From NCBI GenBank assembly GCA_030706745.1, contig JAUZNX010000009.1, positions 1-58,739 of the forward strand: a stretch of DNA of 58,739 bases. The letters are read 5' to 3'. The notes below the pieces were generated by a model. That model saw only the letters and a list, made by a program, of their open reading frames with translations, was not told the DNA's origin and did not search any database. The DNA comes from Bacteroidota bacterium (lineage in GTDB: Bacteria > Bacteroidota > Ignavibacteria > Palsa-1295). This document shows positions 22,711 to 31,963 of this stretch, piece by piece (position 1 is the stretch's first letter; each line of letters starts with the position of its first letter). The position numbers and the translations under genes were made by a program.

Positions 22711-25700
22711 TTAGCTTTCGAGAACGGCAGCCTCAACCGATGCGGGAGCATGTGCCGTTGCCTTACGGCCAAACCGTGCGCGGAATCGGTCTCTCCAACC
22801 GCTGAACAGTTCATAAATGGTGGGAATCACAACGAGTGTGAGAATCGTGGAAGTAATTACTCCGCCAATGACTGCCCGGCCGAGCGGCGCGCGGAAATCG
22901 GCACCCTCACCAGCCCCGATTGCGACTGGTAGCATGCCCGCAATGAGAGCAAGCGTGGTCATCAGAATCGGACGCAAGCGGATCCGTCCAGCCTCTATGA
23001 GCGCCTCCCGAAGCGGCATACCCTTTTCATGCTGCCATTTTGCGAAGTCAATGAGGAGGATAGCATTTTTTGCCACCACGCCCATTAACATCATCACGCC
23101 GATCATCGACATGATATTGAGCGAGTCGCCCGTGGCCAGTAACATCAGTACGACGCCGATCAGCGAAAGCGGCAACGAGATGAGAATAGCCAACGGATCG
23201 AGGAACGAGCCGAATTGCACGACAAGGATTAAGTACATGAGAAGAATCGCCAGGCCAAGCGCTGCGCCCATCGAACCCGCCAGTTCATCCTGATTCTTGG
23301 CTTGCGCACCGTTAGAAATTTGAATCCCTGCTGGCAATTGAAGCTTCGCGATGCCGTTCTGAAGGTCAGTTCGAATTTCACCAAGCGAACGGCCGGAAGT
23401 ATTGGCCTCCACATTGATCACCCGGTCCTGATCGAGATGATCGATCTCGGCAGGTCCCACGCCCTCCTTAATATCTGCAATTTGACCGAGTGGCAGGACG
23501 GCCGAACCTTGTTGCGTCCCGACGGCTGGCACGATCCCTGGCGTGGCTGTTCCACCGGCACCAGCGCCTCCGACGACAATTGGTACTTTCAGAAGATCCG
23601 ATACATTCGCACGCGATGAGGCTGCGAGCCGCACCGTGACGTCGCGGGTCTTGCCGTTGGGGTCGACCCAATCACCCGTCTTAAGCCCGGCGAATGCGGG
23701 CATGAGTGATTGGGCGGTCTGCCCAACCGATAGTCCCATTGTGCCAATCAATCCACGTCGGAGATTAACTTCAACCTCTGGCTTCTGGCCCTTTGTCGAA
23801 AGACCCACATCGACCGCGCCTTTCGTGTGATGAAAGACATCTTCAATCATTTCTGCGGCTTGCTCCATACTGGCATCGCTCGTGCCGCGAATCTGATATT
23901 GGATTTCCTTTTGGGTCGCCCCCCACGGGTTCGTGAAGATGTTGCATTTTACGCCTCCGATCGCTGTAATCTGTTGCCGGAGATTTGCAGCAAACGCATC
24001 GGCCGAGATATGTCTATCGCTCTTGGGCACCAGCTTGATATAGATGCTCGCCTGCGTAACGTCCCCTGCGCTGGATGATCCGCCGAAGGCATTGGCCGTA
24101 TTTCCGATCGTTGTGTAAACGTACGGGACTTCCTTGTGGGCACGTATAAGACTAGTCAGCGCATCGCATTTCGACCGCGTATAGTCAAGGGATGAACCGG
24201 GCGGCGTTTCAACCGAGAGCGTCAGCTCCGAACGATCGCTGCTGGGCGCGAAGCCGGAGCCTCCAAACTTCGCCTGCAAAAAGATTGCGCCGAAGAATAC
24301 GACAACGACGAGTCCGACCATCGACCATCGATGATCGAGCGCCCAGGCGACAACATTGCGGTACTTATCGGCCTGACGGTTAAACCAATTATTGAATCGG
24401 TCGAGTAATCGCGCCAACCAGTTGCGGCGTTCATGTGCTTCCGTTTGAGGATCGGGCCAGTATGCCGAAAGCATTGGATCCAGCGAGAAGCTCACGAACA
24501 GCGAGACCATTACGGCGCATGCAATCGTCAGAGCAAAGGGTTTGAACCACTGCCCCGAAATGCCGCTCATAAATCCCACGGGCGCAAAGACTGCTACGAT
24601 CGAAAATGTCGTGGCGGTCACTGCGAGTCCGATCTCATTTGTGCCAGTGTGCGATGCTGTGAAATGATCCTCTCCCATTTCTACGTGTCGTACAATATTT
24701 TCTCGAACGACGATCGCATCATCGATCAGGATTCCGATGGCAAGTGAAAGTCCCATCAGCGACATGACGTTCAGAGTAAAGCCTGCCGCCATAACTGCGA
24801 TGAACGCGGCCAGCACCGAAACGGGCAACGCAATACCGGTTATGACCGTGGATCGCCACGAATTAAGGAAGAGAAATACGACTAACACCGTCAGAAATGC
24901 GCCTTCGAAGAGTGTCTCCTTCACGTTGTTGACCGATCGCGTGACACGCTCGCCCGCATCTTTGATGACTTCAAGCGACGTCCCGGGTGGAAGAGTCTTC
25001 TTGATATCATCAATCGCAGCCTTGACGTTGTTCGAGACGGTTGCTGTGCTCGCACCTTTGGATTTGGTGATATCTAAACCCACTGCTTCAACACCATTGA
25101 AGAGTGCCAGTGAACGGGCTTCCTTCGCGGTATCGCGGACGTCGGCAACGTCTCCAAGGCGCACCACCTGGCCGTTGCGGGTTGCGATAGGCACTAGCTT
25201 AAACTGCTCGGGATCTTCGATACGGCCTTGCAGCCGAATCGATTGCTCGACCTGCGGATTTTCGAGAGCGCCCACGGGCGCTGCGAGATTCTGCGTTTGG
25301 AGCGCCTGGACGACTTGCGCCACGCTCACGCCATTAGCTTCGAGATCCGCGGGCCGCACGTTCACCGAGATCTCACGATTGACCGCCCCACTAACAGTAA
25401 CTTGCGCGACACCATTGATCGCGCGAATTTCTTTCGTGATACCAGGATCGGCCATCGATGTCAGATCCGCCGGCGACATTCCAGGAGAGCGAAGGATCAG
25501 CGAAACGATCGGCAAATCATCCGGATCGTACTTCTTCAGGATCGGCGGCTTCATCTCCAGCGGCAGATCGTTTTGGATGCCACTGATCGCATCTCGAACG
25601 TCCTGCATCGCCTGATCCGGATTCTTGCTGAAGACGAACTGGCAGGTGATCATGGCAAAGCCGTCCATCGACTTCGAGTTCATCACGTCCATTCCGCTGA

Positions 25701-25920
25701 TCGAACCGAATACCTGCTCCATACGGACGACGACTTCACGCTCGACCTGCTCGGGAGAGGCACCGGGGTACGGGACCATCACCATTACGAACGGCGCAGA
25801 TACGTCGGGAAATTCGTCGATCTGTAGACTCCTGAGCGCGAAAATGCCAAAGATGACGAGCGCCAACATCGTCGTGATCGTGACAACGGGGCGCTTGATA
25901 GCAAAATCTGAAATAAACAT
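22711..25920 (-). CDS. RND efflux pump inner-membrane subunit (AcrB/HAE1 family)
   Basis: 1069 residues, the typical size for a proton-driven AcrB-type pump. Twelve membrane helices sit in two halves, with large periplasmic loops after TM1 and TM7. TM1 reads FAIKRPVVTITTMLALVIFG. The proton-relay aspartate pair lies in TM4 (GILIDDAIVVRENIVRHVEM, about residues 396-400), and the second-half family motif is LGLAILLMYLILVVQFGSFL. The expected Gly-rich GDVADVRDTAKEARSLA segment is also present. Substrate range is not visible. It is the third gene of tolC-adaptor-pump, 30 bases after the adaptor. Confidence 0.97.
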   Translation of the reverse strand: MFISDFAIKRPVVTITTMLALVIFGIFALRSLQIDEFPDVSAPFVMVMVPYPGASPEQVEREVVVRMEQVFGSISGMDVMNSKSMDGFAMITCQFVFSKNPDQAMQDVRDAISGIQNDLPLEMKPPILKKYDPDDLPIVSLILRSPGMSPADLTSMADPGITKEIRAINGVAQVTVSGAVNREISVNVRPADLEANGVSVAQVVQALQTQNLAAPVGALENPQVEQSIRLQGRIEDPEQFKLVPIATRNGQVVRLGDVADVRDTAKEARSLALFNGVEAVGLDITKSKGASTATVSNNVKAAIDDIKKTLPPGTSLEVIKDAGERVTRSVNNVKETLFEGAFLTVLVVFLFLNSWRSTVITGIALPVSVLAAFIAVMAAGFTLNVMSLMGLSLAIGILIDDAIVVRENIVRHVEMGEDHFTASHTGTNEIGLAVTATTFSIVAVFAPVGFMSGISGQWFKPFALTIACAVMVSLFVSFSLDPMLSAYWPDPQTEAHERRNWLARLLDRFNNWFNRQADKYRNVVAWALDHRWSMVGLVVVVFFGAIFLQAKFGGSGFAPSSDRSELTLSVETPPGSSLDYTRSKCDALTSLIRAHKEVPYVYTTIGNTANAFGGSSSAGDVTQASIYIKLVPKSDRHISADAFAANLRQQITAIGGVKCNIFTNPWGATQKEIQYQIRGTSDASMEQAAEMIEDVFHHTKGAVDVGLSTKGQKPEVEVNLRRGLIGTMGLSVGQTAQSLMPAFAGLKTGDWVDPNGKTRDVTVRLAASSRANVSDLLKVPIVVGGAGAGGTATPGIVPAVGTQQGSAVLPLGQIADIKEGVGPAEIDHLDQDRVINVEANTSGRSLGEIRTDLQNGIAKLQLPAGIQISNGAQAKNQDELAGSMGAALGLAILLMYLILVVQFGSFLDPLAILISLPLSLIGVVLMLLATGDSLNIMSMIGVMMLMGVVAKNAILLIDFAKWQHEKGMPLREALIEAGRIRLRPILMTTLALIAGMLPVAIGAGEGADFRAPLGRAVIGGVITSTILTLVVIPTIYELFSGWRDRFRARFGRKATAHAPASVEAAVLES

Positions 25921-25950
25921 GCGACGTGCTAAAGTGCTGCGGCGTTGACG

Positions 25951-27033
25951 TTATGACTTTGGCGGCAGGATCTTGATGTGGGTCCCAAGCCCAATATCGC
26001 GCGCCGGGCCACGCAATACGGTATCCCCAACCGAAATGCCCGATGTGATTTCAATCACATTGTTCTGCTCGTCGAGTGTCCCAAGTGTGATGGGCACGCG
26101 TTGCACGACGTCGTTTACAATTCGTATGACCGCTGGGGTGATCGTCTTGCGATCGACAGCATCCACGGGCAACATTAACGTCGTCTTGTGCTCGCTTGCA
26201 ACGCGGCCCTCCGCATAGAGTCCCGCGACCAGCGCGCGTCCAGTATTTGGAATTTCGGCATAAATGCGAACTTGCCGCGTCATGGGATCGGCGGCAGGAT
26301 TAATCCGCGCGATCTTACCGAGGAACTGCCTTCCCGGATAGCCGGTCACGCTGAATTGAATCTCGAGTCCGGTATGCACGAGTCCGATCGCATTGGCAGG
26401 TACTGCACCTTGCAGTTCAAGCGTCGAAGGATCGACGATGGTCAGCATCGGAGTACCGGGTTGTACCACGTCTCCAGCGGCGACATTTTTCTCGCTAACG
26501 ACCCCCGAAAAAGGAGCGCGTAACGTGGCGTAGGAAAATTGCTTCTGTGCGTTCGCGAGTTGCGTTTTGGATTGCGAGAGTGCAGCCTCCGCGGCGATCG
26601 TCATGCGGCGCGCCTGATCGACCGATTGCTCACTGATCGCTCCCGCCGTGACCAGCTTCTCTTGACGGTCCTGTTCACGCTTCGCTACATCCAAACTATT
26701 CTGAGCACTGGTAACAGCATTCCTGGCGCTTTGGACGGCCTCACCCAGGGCGCTATTGTCGATCGTCGCGATGATTTCGCCGGCCTTGACATTCCGCCCC
26801 TGATCGACAAAGACCTTGAGCACCGAGCCAGAGATCTGAGCCCGTACGACCGCTTGATCGCGAGGAACAAGCGTGCCCGAAATGCTTGGGCCACTCTCGA
26901 TGGCGCCCTCAGTCGCGACGGCATACCCTTCCGCGCCAACCTGCACCGCTGACGGCGGTGGGGGTGGCGGTGCCTTTTTACAGGCCGCCAACGAAATGAA
27001 CGTTACTATGACAAGATAAGGAATGTATTTCAT
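25951..27033 (-). CDS. RND periplasmic adaptor (membrane fusion protein), lipoprotein
   Basis: 360 residues. A lipoprotein signal ends in the lipobox SLAAC (about residue 18) and a Pro-rich stretch (KKAPPPPPPSAV). The family's lipoyl/barrel-sandwich halves flank a helical hairpin: RAQISGSVLKVFVDQGRNVK, then SAQNSLDVAKREQDRQEKLV and ALSQSKTQLANAQ, then ATLRAPFSGVVSEKNVAAGD. The beta-barrel and membrane-proximal domains follow. It joins the pump to the TolC-like channel in the periplasm. The ATG overlaps the TolC-like stop by four bases (ATGA), so assembly partners are translationally coupled. Confidence 0.95.
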   Translation of the reverse strand: MKYIPYLVIVTFISLAACKKAPPPPPPSAVQVGAEGYAVATEGAIESGPSISGTLVPRDQAVVRAQISGSVLKVFVDQGRNVKAGEIIATIDNSALGEAVQSARNAVTSAQNSLDVAKREQDRQEKLVTAGAISEQSVDQARRMTIAAEAALSQSKTQLANAQKQFSYATLRAPFSGVVSEKNVAAGDVVQPGTPMLTIVDPSTLELQGAVPANAIGLVHTGLEIQFSVTGYPGRQFLGKIARINPAADPMTRQVRIYAEIPNTGRALVAGLYAEGRVASEHKTTLMLPVDAVDRKTITPAVIRIVNDVVQRVPITLGTLDEQNNVIEITSGISVGDTVLRGPARDIGLGTHIKILPPKS

Positions 27034-28529
27034 TGTCCCGTAGGCGACGCCGATCCTCCCATCGCGGACGAGGCCGATGGACCAGCAGACGACTGTAGTG
27101 AAGGTGAAGACTGTTGCATAACCGCTCCTTGCAGGGGTGCGGCAGCCTGTGCCGGGCTGACCGGCAAGTCCTTGAGTAACGCCAGTTTTGCGCGCGCGAC
27201 CTGATAGTTACGGACGGCACGCGCCCAGTTCGCGCGGGATTGCTCTTCCTGCAAGCGTGCGTCGTCAAGCTCCAATTGAGTTGAGATTCCTTGCGTGTAC
27301 CGCAGATGTGCAATTTCGTATGCGCGCGCAGCTTCCGATGCGGTGCTTGCCGTCGAGCGCAAGTTCGCCTCAGATGTATGCAACGCATCAATGGAGCTTC
27401 GCGCATCCATGGCCGCTGCTTCGCGAGCCTGCTCGAGCCGGCCACTGGCCTGATCGCGCGTAGCGCGTGCCTGATCGATGTTGCCACCGATATTCCCACC
27501 CGTATAGAGCGGTAGCGAGAGCGTAACCCCCGCAGTCCAGTTCGAAAGCCAATCGTTGTTGTTTGGGAAGAACTGATTGGGGTACGCAACCGGTGAATAC
27601 GACGAACTCGCTGTAATCTGGGGCCAGCGCGCAGCTTCGGCAATGCGGATCTGCGCGTCGCTTGCCGTGATATTCTCCATCGCTTGCCGGACCGGAGCGC
27701 GCGCGTCCTCAGCAGTGTCGCTTCGTGACGCAAACCGCGCAAGCGAATCGACCACGGGGGTGGTGAGCACAAGCGAATCGTCGAGCGAGAAATTCAGCAA
27801 TTGCTTGAGGCGGTAGTACGCCTGGGCACGGTCGCTTTGGCTTTGCAGCAGGATCGGAATTTGATTGTCGCGAGCGACCTTCGCGCGCAGGGCATCGAAC
27901 TCGGCTTTTTCGCCTACCTCATACGCAAGCTGCACTTGCTTGTACACCTCCTCGGCCTGCTTCAGGGCGTCCTGCGAGATTTGGACTAATGTGTCAGACA
28001 ACTCGGCGTCGTAATAACTTTGAGTCACATTCAGCATGACCTGGGCCTCCGCTGCCGTAAGATCGATGTCCGCCGACCGTTTCCGTGCCTGTGCGGCCTC
28101 GCGCTGGGCCGAAAGCCGACCCCCAGTGAAAATGCTTTGCGAGGCGGTCAGTCCGAGCGTCCACACGTTCTCCTTGCCAAATGGAAAGCTCGAAAACAGC
28201 GATGAGAGCGCCTTCGAGATCTGTGACGTGTCCGGTGCGTTGGTGGACATGCTATACTGAGACTTCAGCGTTCGGGTGTAATTGGCAGAGGCGGCAATCT
28301 GCGGGAGCATCCCGCTTGTGGCAACCGCAATGCCGCCTTCAGCCGCCCGGACCCCGGCCTCCGCGATCTGCACCTCTTCGCCGCGATGGAGTGCGGCATC
28401 GATCGCCTCATCGAGCGAAAGGGTACGCCGGGTGGATGACCGATCATCCACCCTCTGCTGAGCGCTCAGGGAGAGCGGCGCGACAAGCGCGATAATAGCC
28501 AACATTGTGAGCTGACGAGCCAAAATCAT
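27030..28529 (-). CDS. TolC family outer-membrane efflux protein
   Basis: 499 residues with a signal peptide (LAIIALVAPLSLSAQ) and two repeats of the outer-membrane efflux protein domain, visible as long amphipathic helices (EEVQIAEAGVRAAEGGIAVA, DIDLTAAEAQVMLNVTQSYY and, in the second half, TRDQASGRLEQAREAAAMDA, DDARLQEEQSRANWARAVRN). Such trimeric ducts cross the outer membrane and periplasm. It is the first gene of the three-gene efflux operon. The C-terminal 50 residues are low-complexity (Ser/Ala/Gly/Pro). No repressor gene is adjacent. Confidence 0.95.
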   Translation of the reverse strand: MILARQLTMLAIIALVAPLSLSAQQRVDDRSSTRRTLSLDEAIDAALHRGEEVQIAEAGVRAAEGGIAVATSGMLPQIAASANYTRTLKSQYSMSTNAPDTSQISKALSSLFSSFPFGKENVWTLGLTASQSIFTGGRLSAQREAAQARKRSADIDLTAAEAQVMLNVTQSYYDAELSDTLVQISQDALKQAEEVYKQVQLAYEVGEKAEFDALRAKVARDNQIPILLQSQSDRAQAYYRLKQLLNFSLDDSLVLTTPVVDSLARFASRSDTAEDARAPVRQAMENITASDAQIRIAEAARWPQITASSSYSPVAYPNQFFPNNNDWLSNWTAGVTLSLPLYTGGNIGGNIDQARATRDQASGRLEQAREAAAMDARSSIDALHTSEANLRSTASTASEAARAYEIAHLRYTQGISTQLELDDARLQEEQSRANWARAVRNYQVARAKLALLKDLPVSPAQAAAPLQGAVMQQSSPSLQSSAGPSASSAMGGSASPTGQ

Positions 28530-28778
28530 CCGGTCTGTGACGAATGAGAGATAAGATTATTGCACGGGTAAGGATGAGTGATCATCCGCCATTAAATCCG
28601 CAGCTAATACGTCCGGAGACGGTCCGCGTTTCGGCGGCCCTAAACAGCAACGAAGGCTAAAGATGTTGCACGGATTCGCAACCTCGTATAGAGGCCGAGC
28701 CCCAGCTTGAATGCCTGTCGTTTGCCGCAGTCAGAGCGGTGCAAGCGGGAGCTTGCACCTACACGCAGGGTTCTTTCG

Positions 28779-28789: not shown

Positions 28790-31700
28790 ATGCGTCTAAA
28801 ACTACTTGTCTCCATCCCTGTCGTCTTCATCCTTGGTATCAGCTCGATCCTTCACGCCCAGTCGGCCGCGACGGGCATTCCGTACTTTCAGCAGGGTGTC
28901 CACTATACGCTCGATGCCACGTTCGAGGATGACTACTCATCTCCCGCGCTCAGCGGGCAAGGCCGGCTACTCTACACGAATAACTCACTGGATACACTCC
29001 ACGAGCTATACTTCCATCTCTACTGGAATCTCTTCCGCTCAGGCAGCTACGGTGAGCGCGCGCCGAACCGCGATCACTCGCCAGATTCGAAATATGGGCG
29101 TGGCGGTATCGACATCAAAGCACTGACTGTCGGAGATGGTGGCAAAGATAGCCGCCCCGTGCGCTATGAAATCGACAACACTATCATGCGCGTCTTCTTG
29201 AACGATCCACTCATGCCAGGCGCGACGCGAAAGATCGGATTCGAGTGGCATGCAATCTTTCCAAACTATGGTGTCCGTTCGACCTGGGGCTGGCATGACA
29301 AGGGCGCACGCAATTTTGCGACGGCGCAGTGGTATCCGCAGGTCTGCGTGTATGATAATCACGGTTGGCATCCCGATCAGTATATCGGGATGGGCGAGTT
29401 CTACACGGACTATGGCTCATTTGATGTCTCGCTCAAGATGCCGGAGCGATTCAGCACCGTTGTATCGACGGGATTCCAGACGAATGCGAAGGACATCCTG
29501 CCGGACTCGGTCAACCAGCATCTCGATTTTGCCCACGCACATCCGGATTCTATCGTTCACATTTCCGATCGCTCCAGTTTCCAGAATACTCCAATCAAGA
29601 AAGGTGAGCCGACCCGCACCTGGAAATTTCACGCAGATTCAGTTCGAGACTTTGCCTGGTGCGCGGATGAAGCCTATATTTGGGATGCCGTCTTCGATGG
29701 CGGCGTAATGCACCATGCGGTCTACTGGAACAGCTCACATGAATTCTGGAGCAAGGAAGCAGCGAAGATCGTGCTTGTTACGGAACAGACAAACTCGGAA
29801 TTTGCAGGTAAGTATGCCTATCCCAACATGTTCTTATGCGAGACGTATGAAGGCGGCATGGAGTACCCCGGCATCGTCTTCGTTGGGCCGTCCGAGAACG
29901 AATCCACCTATCACTGGCAGCATAACACGATGATGCACGAGCTTGGGCACGAGTGGTACCCGATGATGATGGGTTCGAACGAGACCGACTACGGCTACAT
30001 GGACGAGGGGTTCAATACGTTCATCACGACCTTCGTGCAGGAGAAATACTTCGGTCGGTGGAATAACTCTTTCGGTCCCGGACTTGGCTTTAACGACGAC
30101 GAACGTACAGCGAACTATCGCAATGCGCTGATGCACCAACTCATCGGCAACCAGGAGCCGAGCGAGCAGAAAGCCGACGCCTATCTCAGCTATCGCGATT
30201 ATGCCGAGGCAACCTATCCTCACACATCGAGCGTGTTCTTTATGTTGCGCTATACGATGGGCGAGAAGGCGTTCGATGACTTCATGCACTTGTACTATCA
30301 GCGCTGGCGCTTCAAGCATCCCTATCCCGATGATCTGCTGAATGCCGCTGAGGACATCGAGCGCACCGAAGGGGACACGAACCGCGTCCGCGCCCGAGGC
30401 GATCTCCGTTGGTTCTTCGATGAGTGGTTCAACAAGACGTGGAAGCTGGATTATGCAGTCGAGGATTTCCATGTCAGCGACACTCTAATGGTGGTGGCGT
30501 CCGGAGGAGACCCCGTTATACCCATCATGCAGACTGTCTTTATAGCGAAGGTTACTATCGCGAGAAAACAGCGCTGCGTCATGCCGCTCGATCTCGTCTT
30601 TACATTCGATGATGGCACGACCGAACAAAGGTGGATTCCTGTCGATGATTGGTTGCGGACAGTCGCGGATGAGCGGACATACACCTACACCTTCGCAAAA
30701 CATCCAACTCGTGTCGAGATCAATCCCTCGCGCGAGTTGAAGGAGACCAACAGGCTCAACAACACGAGCAGTTGGCTGCCGCCGATGGAAGTTGGCCTGA
30801 TTCCCAAAGTCTTCGGCGATGTCAAGCCGATTGATAAATATGCAATCCGCTCCGCGCCATACGTCTGGCCATTATCGGGTGACTTCTCTTCGGGCTGGCT
30901 GTTGGGCTGGACCTTCCTGGGCAGCTATCTTGACCGCACGGACAGGATCGCAATCGGGCCGCGCGTCAGCCTCAATCATTTCGATCACATTCTGAATGGT
31001 GCTGCGCTGCAGTATCATACCGTGCTCGATTGCCTCTCGCCTCAAACCGATCTTGACCTACTGCTCGCGCCTGCCGATTATCCGCAGAAGTACGGATTTC
31101 AGTATCTGGGATTCCAATTTTCTTATCTCGTAAACAGGCCTGGAACAACCGAGCCTATCGATATCTTCGAAGGGGGAGTCGATGTTTCAGGCGCTCATTT
31201 GATTGGCCAGGATGTAATTGCCCTGCCACCTCTCAATCGCGGACACGTTGGCTATTCCGTGAGTGCATCTGGCCCAACCAACCACGTCACAATCGCCGCA
31301 CAGTTCGAAGATGGCTTAGGCGATCCACGCAACACCTACACGAAGATTGCTGGACTGCTAATCGACCGCCAGCGCATCACCTCCGATTGGTCGGCGCTCG
31401 CGAGGCTGTTCGGTGGCAGCGAGCAACCAGCTGGTGGTTCCATCCCCGCGCAGACCATGTTCCAACTCGCGAGTCCAAGCGATCTCGATCACTTCACCGA
31501 TCTTTACGGCTCGAACTTCGGCTCGGGCGTGCGGGACAAAATTCGCAATGCGACGGTGAGCGGTCCGCTCGTGCGAGGATACGTTGGTCGTGGCAATGAC
31601 ATCGGCCGCGCTGCCGCAAGTGGGACGTTCGAGATTAGCAATTACTCGATGTTTCCGTTCAGCCTCCTAAGAGAGATACCAATCGTTGGCAATATCTTCA

Positions 31701-31963
31701 AGCCATTTGGTCTTGTGCTATTCGCCGATGCGGGTGTCGTCTCCAATGATGTGAATGCGAACAACCTTCATGATGAGCTGAAGAGCGATCTCGGTATTGG
31801 ACTGCGATGGGAAGGACTCTTCGGGCGAATGGAGCGCGCGCTCGATATCGATCTTGAGCGGGCTAATTTCCAGATCGACTTTCCCATCTATCTCGATAAA
31901 CCGCCGGTCGGCGAGAGCAAACTCGCATTCCGTGTTGTCGGAATGGTGCGGCAGGACTTCTAG
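28790..31963 (+). CDS. M1 family metallopeptidase fused to a C-terminal beta-barrel-like domain
   Basis: 1057 residues from the ATG at 28790, giving a clean signal peptide (MRLKLLVSIPVVFILGISS). Residues about 30-620 are an M1 (gluzincin) metallopeptidase: the exopeptidase-type motif GGMEYPG and the zinc motif HELGH (His383, Glu384, His387) with the third ligand Glu406 in YMDEGF, exactly HEXXH-x18-E. A linker (to about 670) leads to about 385 residues rich in alternating aromatic strands (PFGLVLFADAGVV, SDLGIGLRWEG, FQIDFPIYLDKPP) that ends in Phe (VVGMVRQDF), as outer-membrane beta-barrels do. I infer a surface-anchored or periplasm-facing peptidase. Nucleotide composition resembles the neighbours. 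Confidence 0.88.
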   Translation: MRLKLLVSIPVVFILGISSILHAQSAATGIPYFQQGVHYTLDATFEDDYSSPALSGQGRLLYTNNSLDTLHELYFHLYWNLFRSGSYGERAPNRDHSPDSKYGRGGIDIKALTVGDGGKDSRPVRYEIDNTIMRVFLNDPLMPGATRKIGFEWHAIFPNYGVRSTWGWHDKGARNFATAQWYPQVCVYDNHGWHPDQYIGMGEFYTDYGSFDVSLKMPERFSTVVSTGFQTNAKDILPDSVNQHLDFAHAHPDSIVHISDRSSFQNTPIKKGEPTRTWKFHADSVRDFAWCADEAYIWDAVFDGGVMHHAVYWNSSHEFWSKEAAKIVLVTEQTNSEFAGKYAYPNMFLCETYEGGMEYPGIVFVGPSENESTYHWQHNTMMHELGHEWYPMMMGSNETDYGYMDEGFNTFITTFVQEKYFGRWNNSFGPGLGFNDDERTANYRNALMHQLIGNQEPSEQKADAYLSYRDYAEATYPHTSSVFFMLRYTMGEKAFDDFMHLYYQRWRFKHPYPDDLLNAAEDIERTEGDTNRVRARGDLRWFFDEWFNKTWKLDYAVEDFHVSDTLMVVASGGDPVIPIMQTVFIAKVTIARKQRCVMPLDLVFTFDDGTTEQRWIPVDDWLRTVADERTYTYTFAKHPTRVEINPSRELKETNRLNNTSSWLPPMEVGLIPKVFGDVKPIDKYAIRSAPYVWPLSGDFSSGWLLGWTFLGSYLDRTDRIAIGPRVSLNHFDHILNGAALQYHTVLDCLSPQTDLDLLLAPADYPQKYGFQYLGFQFSYLVNRPGTTEPIDIFEGGVDVSGAHLIGQDVIALPPLNRGHVGYSVSASGPTNHVTIAAQFEDGLGDPRNTYTKIAGLLIDRQRITSDWSALARLFGGSEQPAGGSIPAQTMFQLASPSDLDHFTDLYGSNFGSGVRDKIRNATVSGPLVRGYVGRGNDIGRAAASGTFEISNYSMFPFSLLREIPIVGNIFKPFGLVLFADAGVVSNDVNANNLHDELKSDLGIGLRWEGLFGRMERALDIDLERANFQIDFPIYLDKPPVGESKLAFRVVGMVRQDF

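Follow-up and report, generated by a model that had tools for sequence, protein, structure and literature searches.

An M1 zinc metallopeptidase fused to a predicted Omp85-type outer-membrane barrel in the Bacteroidota

A single open reading frame in the window (by which we mean the whole 58,739-nucleotide stretch of DNA analyzed here) was noted in a preliminary description as an M1 metallopeptidase that apparently continues into an outer-membrane β-barrel. This raised the question of whether such a fusion is real, what kind of barrel it carries, and on which side of the outer membrane the peptidase would lie.

Gene, peptidase, and barrel

The fusion gene (28790..31963, plus strand, as are all features below unless stated otherwise) starts at ATG 28790, ends with a stop codon at 31961-31963, and comprises 1057 codons; relatives of full length exist for the 1057-aa product. 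From the N terminus, the order is signal peptide, M1 zinc aminopeptidase, Ig-like domain, and outer-membrane barrel. Read from an upstream GTG at 28739, the same frame would give 1074 aa; we preferred the ATG because the signal peptide begins immediately after it. The predicted signal peptide, read from the translation, covers residues 1 to 23 (28790..28858), with likely cleavage between LHA and QS, and the structural model has a helix at residues 2 to 26. No lipobox Cys stands behind the signal peptide, so the protein is not a lipoprotein, and lipoprotein anchoring was ruled out on this ground. AlphaFold models of the whole protein (pLDDT 79.7, pTM 0.80) and of the barrel alone (pLDDT 75.8, pTM 0.76) were built from 26 aligned long proteins.

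The N-terminal half is that of an M1 enzyme. A β domain at residues 34 to 312, approximately (28889..29725), was placed by strands of the model and by the whole model's fold match to IRAP and ERAP1, and is followed by the catalytic domain at about residues 313 to 548 (29726..30433). Pfam Peptidase_M1 (PF01433) matched residues 332 to 546 with an E value of 4.7e-14 and a score of 52.9 bits (cut-off, 27.7). The whole-protein model retrieved IRAP and ERAP1 among solved structures (E of about 1e-20), and the family profile retrieved solved M1 enzymes with an E value of 6e-18. The motifs that had been placed within the first 600 residues were all located there. GGMEYPG (residues 355 to 361; 29852..29872) is the counterpart of the GxMEN exopeptidase motif, with its Glu (E358) kept in 26/26 aligned long forms and its Asn replaced by Tyr. 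The zinc site HELGH (H383, E384, and H387; residues 383 to 387; 29936..29950) and the third ligand, E406 (30005-30007), have the spacing HExxH-x18-E when read from the sequence. Y476 (30215..30217) is the likely catalytic tyrosine, by analogy with other M1 enzymes. These six residues (E358, H383, E384, H387, E406, and Y476) were identical in all 26 aligned long forms and were also invariant in a phylum-wide alignment of 27. Judged by these residues, the M1 active site is intact.

The catalytic domain is followed by an Ig/FN3-like domain (residues 553 to 655; 30446..30754), which is all β in the model save for one short helix. This domain is common to short M1 forms, to which matches stop near residue 658. 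It is not a POTRA domain, and Pfam POTRA was absent from the whole protein at an E value of ≤1. Nor does the model leave room for one, with only about 28 residues of linker (30755..30838) between the Ig-like domain and barrel strand 1.

The last 385 residues had been described as barrel-like and ending in Phe, which corresponds well to the barrel plus linker found here. The predicted barrel occupies residues 684 to 1057 (30839..31960), with strands from 684 to 1055. Both AlphaFold models gave 16 strands, within the 12 to 16 expected at the outset, and in both a single long loop (loop 6, residues 880 to 940; 31427..31609) joins strand 11 to strand 12. The last strand and its C-terminal Phe (31937..31960), recognized from the alignment and the model, form a candidate β-signal for insertion by BAM; R1048, near this strand, was present in 26/26 aligned long forms.

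Fold and profile searches point to the same family of barrels. With the barrel alone as the Foldseek query, TamA, BamA, and Sam50 ranked on top (E values down to 2.9e-8) and FhaC lower, while OccAB1, an unrelated porin, appeared at rank 38. VIA-align, run on the Foldseek candidates, aligned BamA of Deinococcus over 296 residues at 3.7 Å (Z score, 20.8), and the best 50 listed entries all belonged to the Omp85 superfamily. The Pfam Omp85 model gave the window protein by itself 18.0 bits, below the cut-off of 24; it matched 5 of the 26 close long relatives at an E value of ≤0.1 (best, 3.5e-6) and 5 of 27 phylum-wide long forms at ≤0.05. A fused-barrel profile made from the phylum-wide set of 27 matched BamA with an E value of 3.4e-10, whereas a barrel profile from the close relatives alone reached 0.09 at best. 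As modeled, then, the C-terminal barrel is a member of the Omp85 (BamA/TamA/FhaC) superfamily. The two contrary outcomes envisaged earlier did not materialize: a soluble β-sandwich gave way to a membrane barrel in the models, Foldseek, and VIA-align, and the long homologues are not ordinary M1 enzymes with a named M1 C-terminal domain. A soluble sandwich and a helical M1 domain at the C terminus were thus both ruled out by the barrel seen in the models and fold searches.

Omp85 proteins are marked by an RG[FY] motif that lies in loop 6 and precedes strand 12. The fusion has VRGY at residues 928 to 931 (31571..31582), with E948 of strand 12 located 19 residues after the Arg. The corresponding distance, counted by eye, is 18 residues in L125 (with POTRA), L126 (without POTRA), and L127 (with WD40-like repeats), three further Omp85 proteins encoded in this genome, and on the strength of this near-equal spacing we read VRGY as the Omp85 loop 6 motif. 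Its Arg was found in 20/26 close long forms and in only 11/27 of the phylum-wide set, and the HMMER alignment to BamA did not bring VRGY into register with BamA's own motif.

Distribution and history of the fusion

M1 relatives come in two sizes, a short form of about 640 aa that lacks a barrel and a long form of about 1000 to 1100 aa. Searching 61 genomes (including that of the window) with the window protein gave a match in 51. A long form, defined here as a matching open frame of ≥980 aa, was present in 24 of the 61, and most of the remaining matches lay in frames of 440 to 880 aa. Within the window's own family, 12 of 13 genomes carried the long form; in the thirteenth (G012), the match ends at a contig edge. 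Since the same fusion occurs in 24/61 genomes, in some of them on megabase-size contigs, a chimeric contig or a frameshift was ruled out.

In a sample of 395 Bacteroidota genomes, at least 45, from at least 20 families, carried long forms. For this count, the profile ran from the Ig-like domain to the end of the barrel, up to 4 candidates were scored per genome, and a match had to start at profile position ≤4, end at ≥460, and lie in an open frame of ≥990 aa; G060, where the frame ends at a contig edge, was left out. Short M1 forms were common in the phylum (up to 2 candidates scored per genome). Plasmid records gave 27 matches, none of which covered 80% of the query and none of which was a long form; the plasmid matches listed do not extend past residue 659. 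Among named records, the nearest are metagenome-assembled genomes that bear the names Candidatus Kapaibacterium, Ignavibacteriae, and Bacteroidetes bacterium, and a scan of named genomes gave close relatives and, apart from these, just two short archaeal matches, leaving few named carriers of the fusion. Together, these data establish the joining of an M1 peptidase to an outer-membrane barrel as real and old. Because the fusion is present across many families and its active site appears intact, the protein is likely functional.

The M1 halves of long and short forms are largely separate in a tree. Among 34 long and 25 short forms (59 rows picked for spread from a larger match set, with L118 left out because its frame was wrong), the length label changed twice on the tree, compared to 19.2 times in shuffles; the tree was quick and unrooted and had no bootstraps. 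Six short M1 forms (L111 to L116, of families f28, f33, f35, and f37) are nested within long forms, which suggests loss of the barrel, a direction that the tree alone cannot separate from gain. Two long forms of family f17, L021 and L144, group with short forms and may represent a second fusion event. The branch leading to L142 is very long.

A quick, unrooted tree of 49 barrels recovered the same main fused subgroups as the M1 tree. The nine stand-alone barrels sampled formed a single clade (99), separate from the fused groups. Stand-alone barrels of this kind in families f34 and f35 are encoded in frames of 400 to 443 aa (403 to 438 aa for the nine, L102 to L110) and match the fused-barrel profile with E values down to 2e-39; all nine have RGY or RGF in loop 6, and L102 and L107 had no Pfam match at an E value of ≤0.01. 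Genomes of f34 hold both stand-alone barrels and the M1 fusion. This co-presence and the separate clade argue against the stand-alone barrels being direct fission products. As far as these quick, unrooted trees can tell, the pattern is consistent with one or very few origins of the fusion, with its halves inherited together and the barrel lost in some families.

Location and function of the fusion protein

We consider it probable that the protein is an outer-membrane-anchored aminopeptidase whose head lies on the periplasmic side and trims N-terminal residues from peptides. In this scheme, Sec would export the protein, BAM would insert the barrel by way of its C-terminal strand, the M1 head would be held on the periplasmic side of the outer membrane, and its substrates would be peptides entering through that membrane or arising from protein turnover there. 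Anchoring in the outer membrane, as first proposed, is supported by the predicted Omp85-type barrel. The accompanying suggestion that the peptidase may face the surface fared less well. Omp85 barrels have a periplasmic N terminus. The passages on PlpD, a patatin-Omp85 protein, in PMC11116518 describe an enzyme domain that stays in the periplasm. By analogy with these barrels and with PlpD, the M1 head should be periplasmic as well, which argues against a surface-facing peptidase. In the model, the loops that would be outer if the N terminus is periplasmic are longer than the others (means of about 17 and 9 residues, the 61-residue loop 6 included), and their lengths thus fit a periplasmic N terminus.

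M1 enzymes with a GxMEN-type Glu are generally known as exopeptidases that act on peptides and not on folded or stalled chains. This weighs against a different role at the same membrane, quality control of outer-membrane proteins beside BAM, in which the M1 head would degrade stalled or misfolded proteins much as the M48 protease BepA does. The kinship of the fused barrel to BamA speaks for the idea, and PMC13067283 describes the action of BepA and further zinc proteases at BAM. On the other hand, the patchy occurrence of the fusion (at least 45 of 395 genomes) and the lack of a conserved neighbor gene among 4 loci compared count against such a function, which we regard as unlikely.

The trimming aminopeptidase that we favor could also be elaborated into a port for peptide processing. 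Here the barrel would admit or sense peptides, with loop 6 or the lateral seam gating the M1 site at the periplasmic mouth; the proteins would form a catalytic, POTRA-less class of Omp85 that arose by fusion early in the Bacteroidota and was subsequently lost from some lineages. This is a speculative extension to which we attach a small probability. If true, it would mean that a scaffold for building membranes had been turned into a membrane-bound peptidase.

Surface display, in which the Omp85 barrel would carry the M1 head across the outer membrane in the manner of type Vd secretion for extracellular digestion of peptides, seems improbable. The 28-residue linker might just be long enough for a threaded head, and patatin-Omp85 proteins were originally claimed to use type Vd autotransport, as stated in the sections of PMC4104836 on this subfamily. 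However, PlpD was the founding type Vd case, and its reexamination is what placed the enzyme domain in the periplasm (PMC11116518, in the passages cited above). Such transport would also require the folded head, for which its length suggests a mass of about 70 kDa, to unfold. Membership among type Vd autotransporters proper was ruled out, as patatin and POTRA are both absent.

The genome has, moreover, an established surface route for M1 enzymes that leaves a second one unneeded. It contains six M1 genes, two of which are barrel fusions; the second fusion paralogue, of 1042 aa, is on contig C3. Among the other four, L003 has a T9SS sorting tail that scores above the cut-off, and L002 and L004 have weak matches (L003, L002, and L004 are on contigs C4, C1, and C19, respectively). 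The fusion protein had no Por_Secre_tail match at an E value of ≤0.1, and with a C-terminal sorting tail absent, it was ruled out as T9SS cargo. The genome thus seems to place M1 peptidases at the surface via T9SS and at the outer membrane via a barrel.

Least probable of all is a reading in which the barrel does the work, as an insertase or translocase that lacks POTRA and has an inactive or chaperone-like M1 domain in its place: other non-POTRA Omp85 subfamilies have been proposed as assembly helpers (in the subfamily descriptions of PMC4104836) and stand-alone barrels of like kind exist in f34 and f35, but the zinc and catalytic residues are all retained in 26/26 long forms and the barrel is the more variable part, with a mean column identity of 31% in the barrel alignment versus 39% in that of the whole protein.

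Related systems and genomic setting

Outer-membrane assembly centers on the Omp85 superfamily, in which members with an enzyme head are few and poorly understood. The closest parallel in architecture is provided by the patatin-Omp85 proteins PlpD and FplA, which likewise have an enzyme N-terminal to a 16-strand Omp85 barrel; however, their head is a patatin lipase and they possess POTRA, while the fusion has an M1 peptidase head and no POTRA between head and barrel. BamA, TamA, TpsB, and patatin-Omp85 all have at least one POTRA, unlike the fusion. The domain PF00149, which we take to be calcineurin-like phosphoesterase, has another metal-dependent fold than the M1 zinc peptidase of the fusion. 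It heads the 'Metallo' Omp85 subfamily, which, like the WD40-Omp85 subfamily, has a non-POTRA domain before the barrel, as the fusion does (PMC4104836, subfamily descriptions). Heinz and Lithgow (2014) defined the Omp85/TpsB superfamily by its barrel and distinguished ten subfamilies, several of them POTRA-less; none of the ten is described there with an M1 head, and no word of the main text begins with 'peptidase' (PMC4104836).

Proteins that share only one half were also compared. Short M1 proteins (annotated 'M1 family metallopeptidase') have the same M1 and Ig-like domains but end there, without a barrel. LTA4H, ERAP1/IRAP, and aminopeptidase N have the M1 catalytic fold and residues of the fusion, with helical C-terminal domains where the fusion has its barrel. 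The stand-alone barrels of f34 and f35 resemble the fused barrel in loop motif and profile match but have no peptidase. We found no curated model for the combination, in keeping with the earlier remark that no common M1 peptidase has such a C terminus.

An M1-Omp85 protein was not found in the portions available of a 2026 review (PMC13067283) or of two papers on Bacteroidota (PMC12611786 and PMC12045153), and titles and the beginnings of abstracts in the open-access literature yielded no description of one, although others may have seen such a protein. The M1-headed, POTRA-less Omp85 protein is widespread in the Bacteroidota and undescribed in the open-access literature searched. It adds a zinc aminopeptidase, found in numerous families of a major phylum, to the enzyme heads of Omp85 and offers a direct test of the idea, based on PlpD, that these barrels were reused in novel roles with their enzymes kept periplasmic and not secreted. 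In practical terms, the annotation 'M1 family metallopeptidase' can conceal an outer-membrane protein.

Next to the fusion gene and divergent from it, on the minus strand at 22711-28529 of the window, is a three-gene RND efflux set (ACR_tran, HlyD-type, and OEP by Pfam). Among 4 loci compared, this set was kept beside the fusion only in the nearest, L037; flanking genes were not kept at L038 to L040, so no neighbor is conserved beyond L037, and no conserved neighbor points to a substrate. In this comparison, we labeled genes AcrB, MFP, and TolC on the basis of the Pfam matches to ACR_tran, HlyD, and OEP, respectively; the Nuo names are presumptive, taken from the look of the sequences. Scans for promoters and terminators and a search for repeats yielded nothing relevant to the fusion protein.

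Other Omp85 proteins of the genome comprise three that carry POTRA, a patatin-Omp85, a bare barrel, and a protein with WD40-like repeats. The patatin-Omp85 protein, L124 (contig C5), matched Pfam Patatin and Omp85, and L127 (contig C4; 1058 aa) has WD40-like repeats and a C terminus matching Omp85. Two relatives carry tandem pairs of M1-Omp85 genes (L039:1651-8024 and L040:1426-8048), whereas the two fusions of the window's own genome sit on separate contigs.
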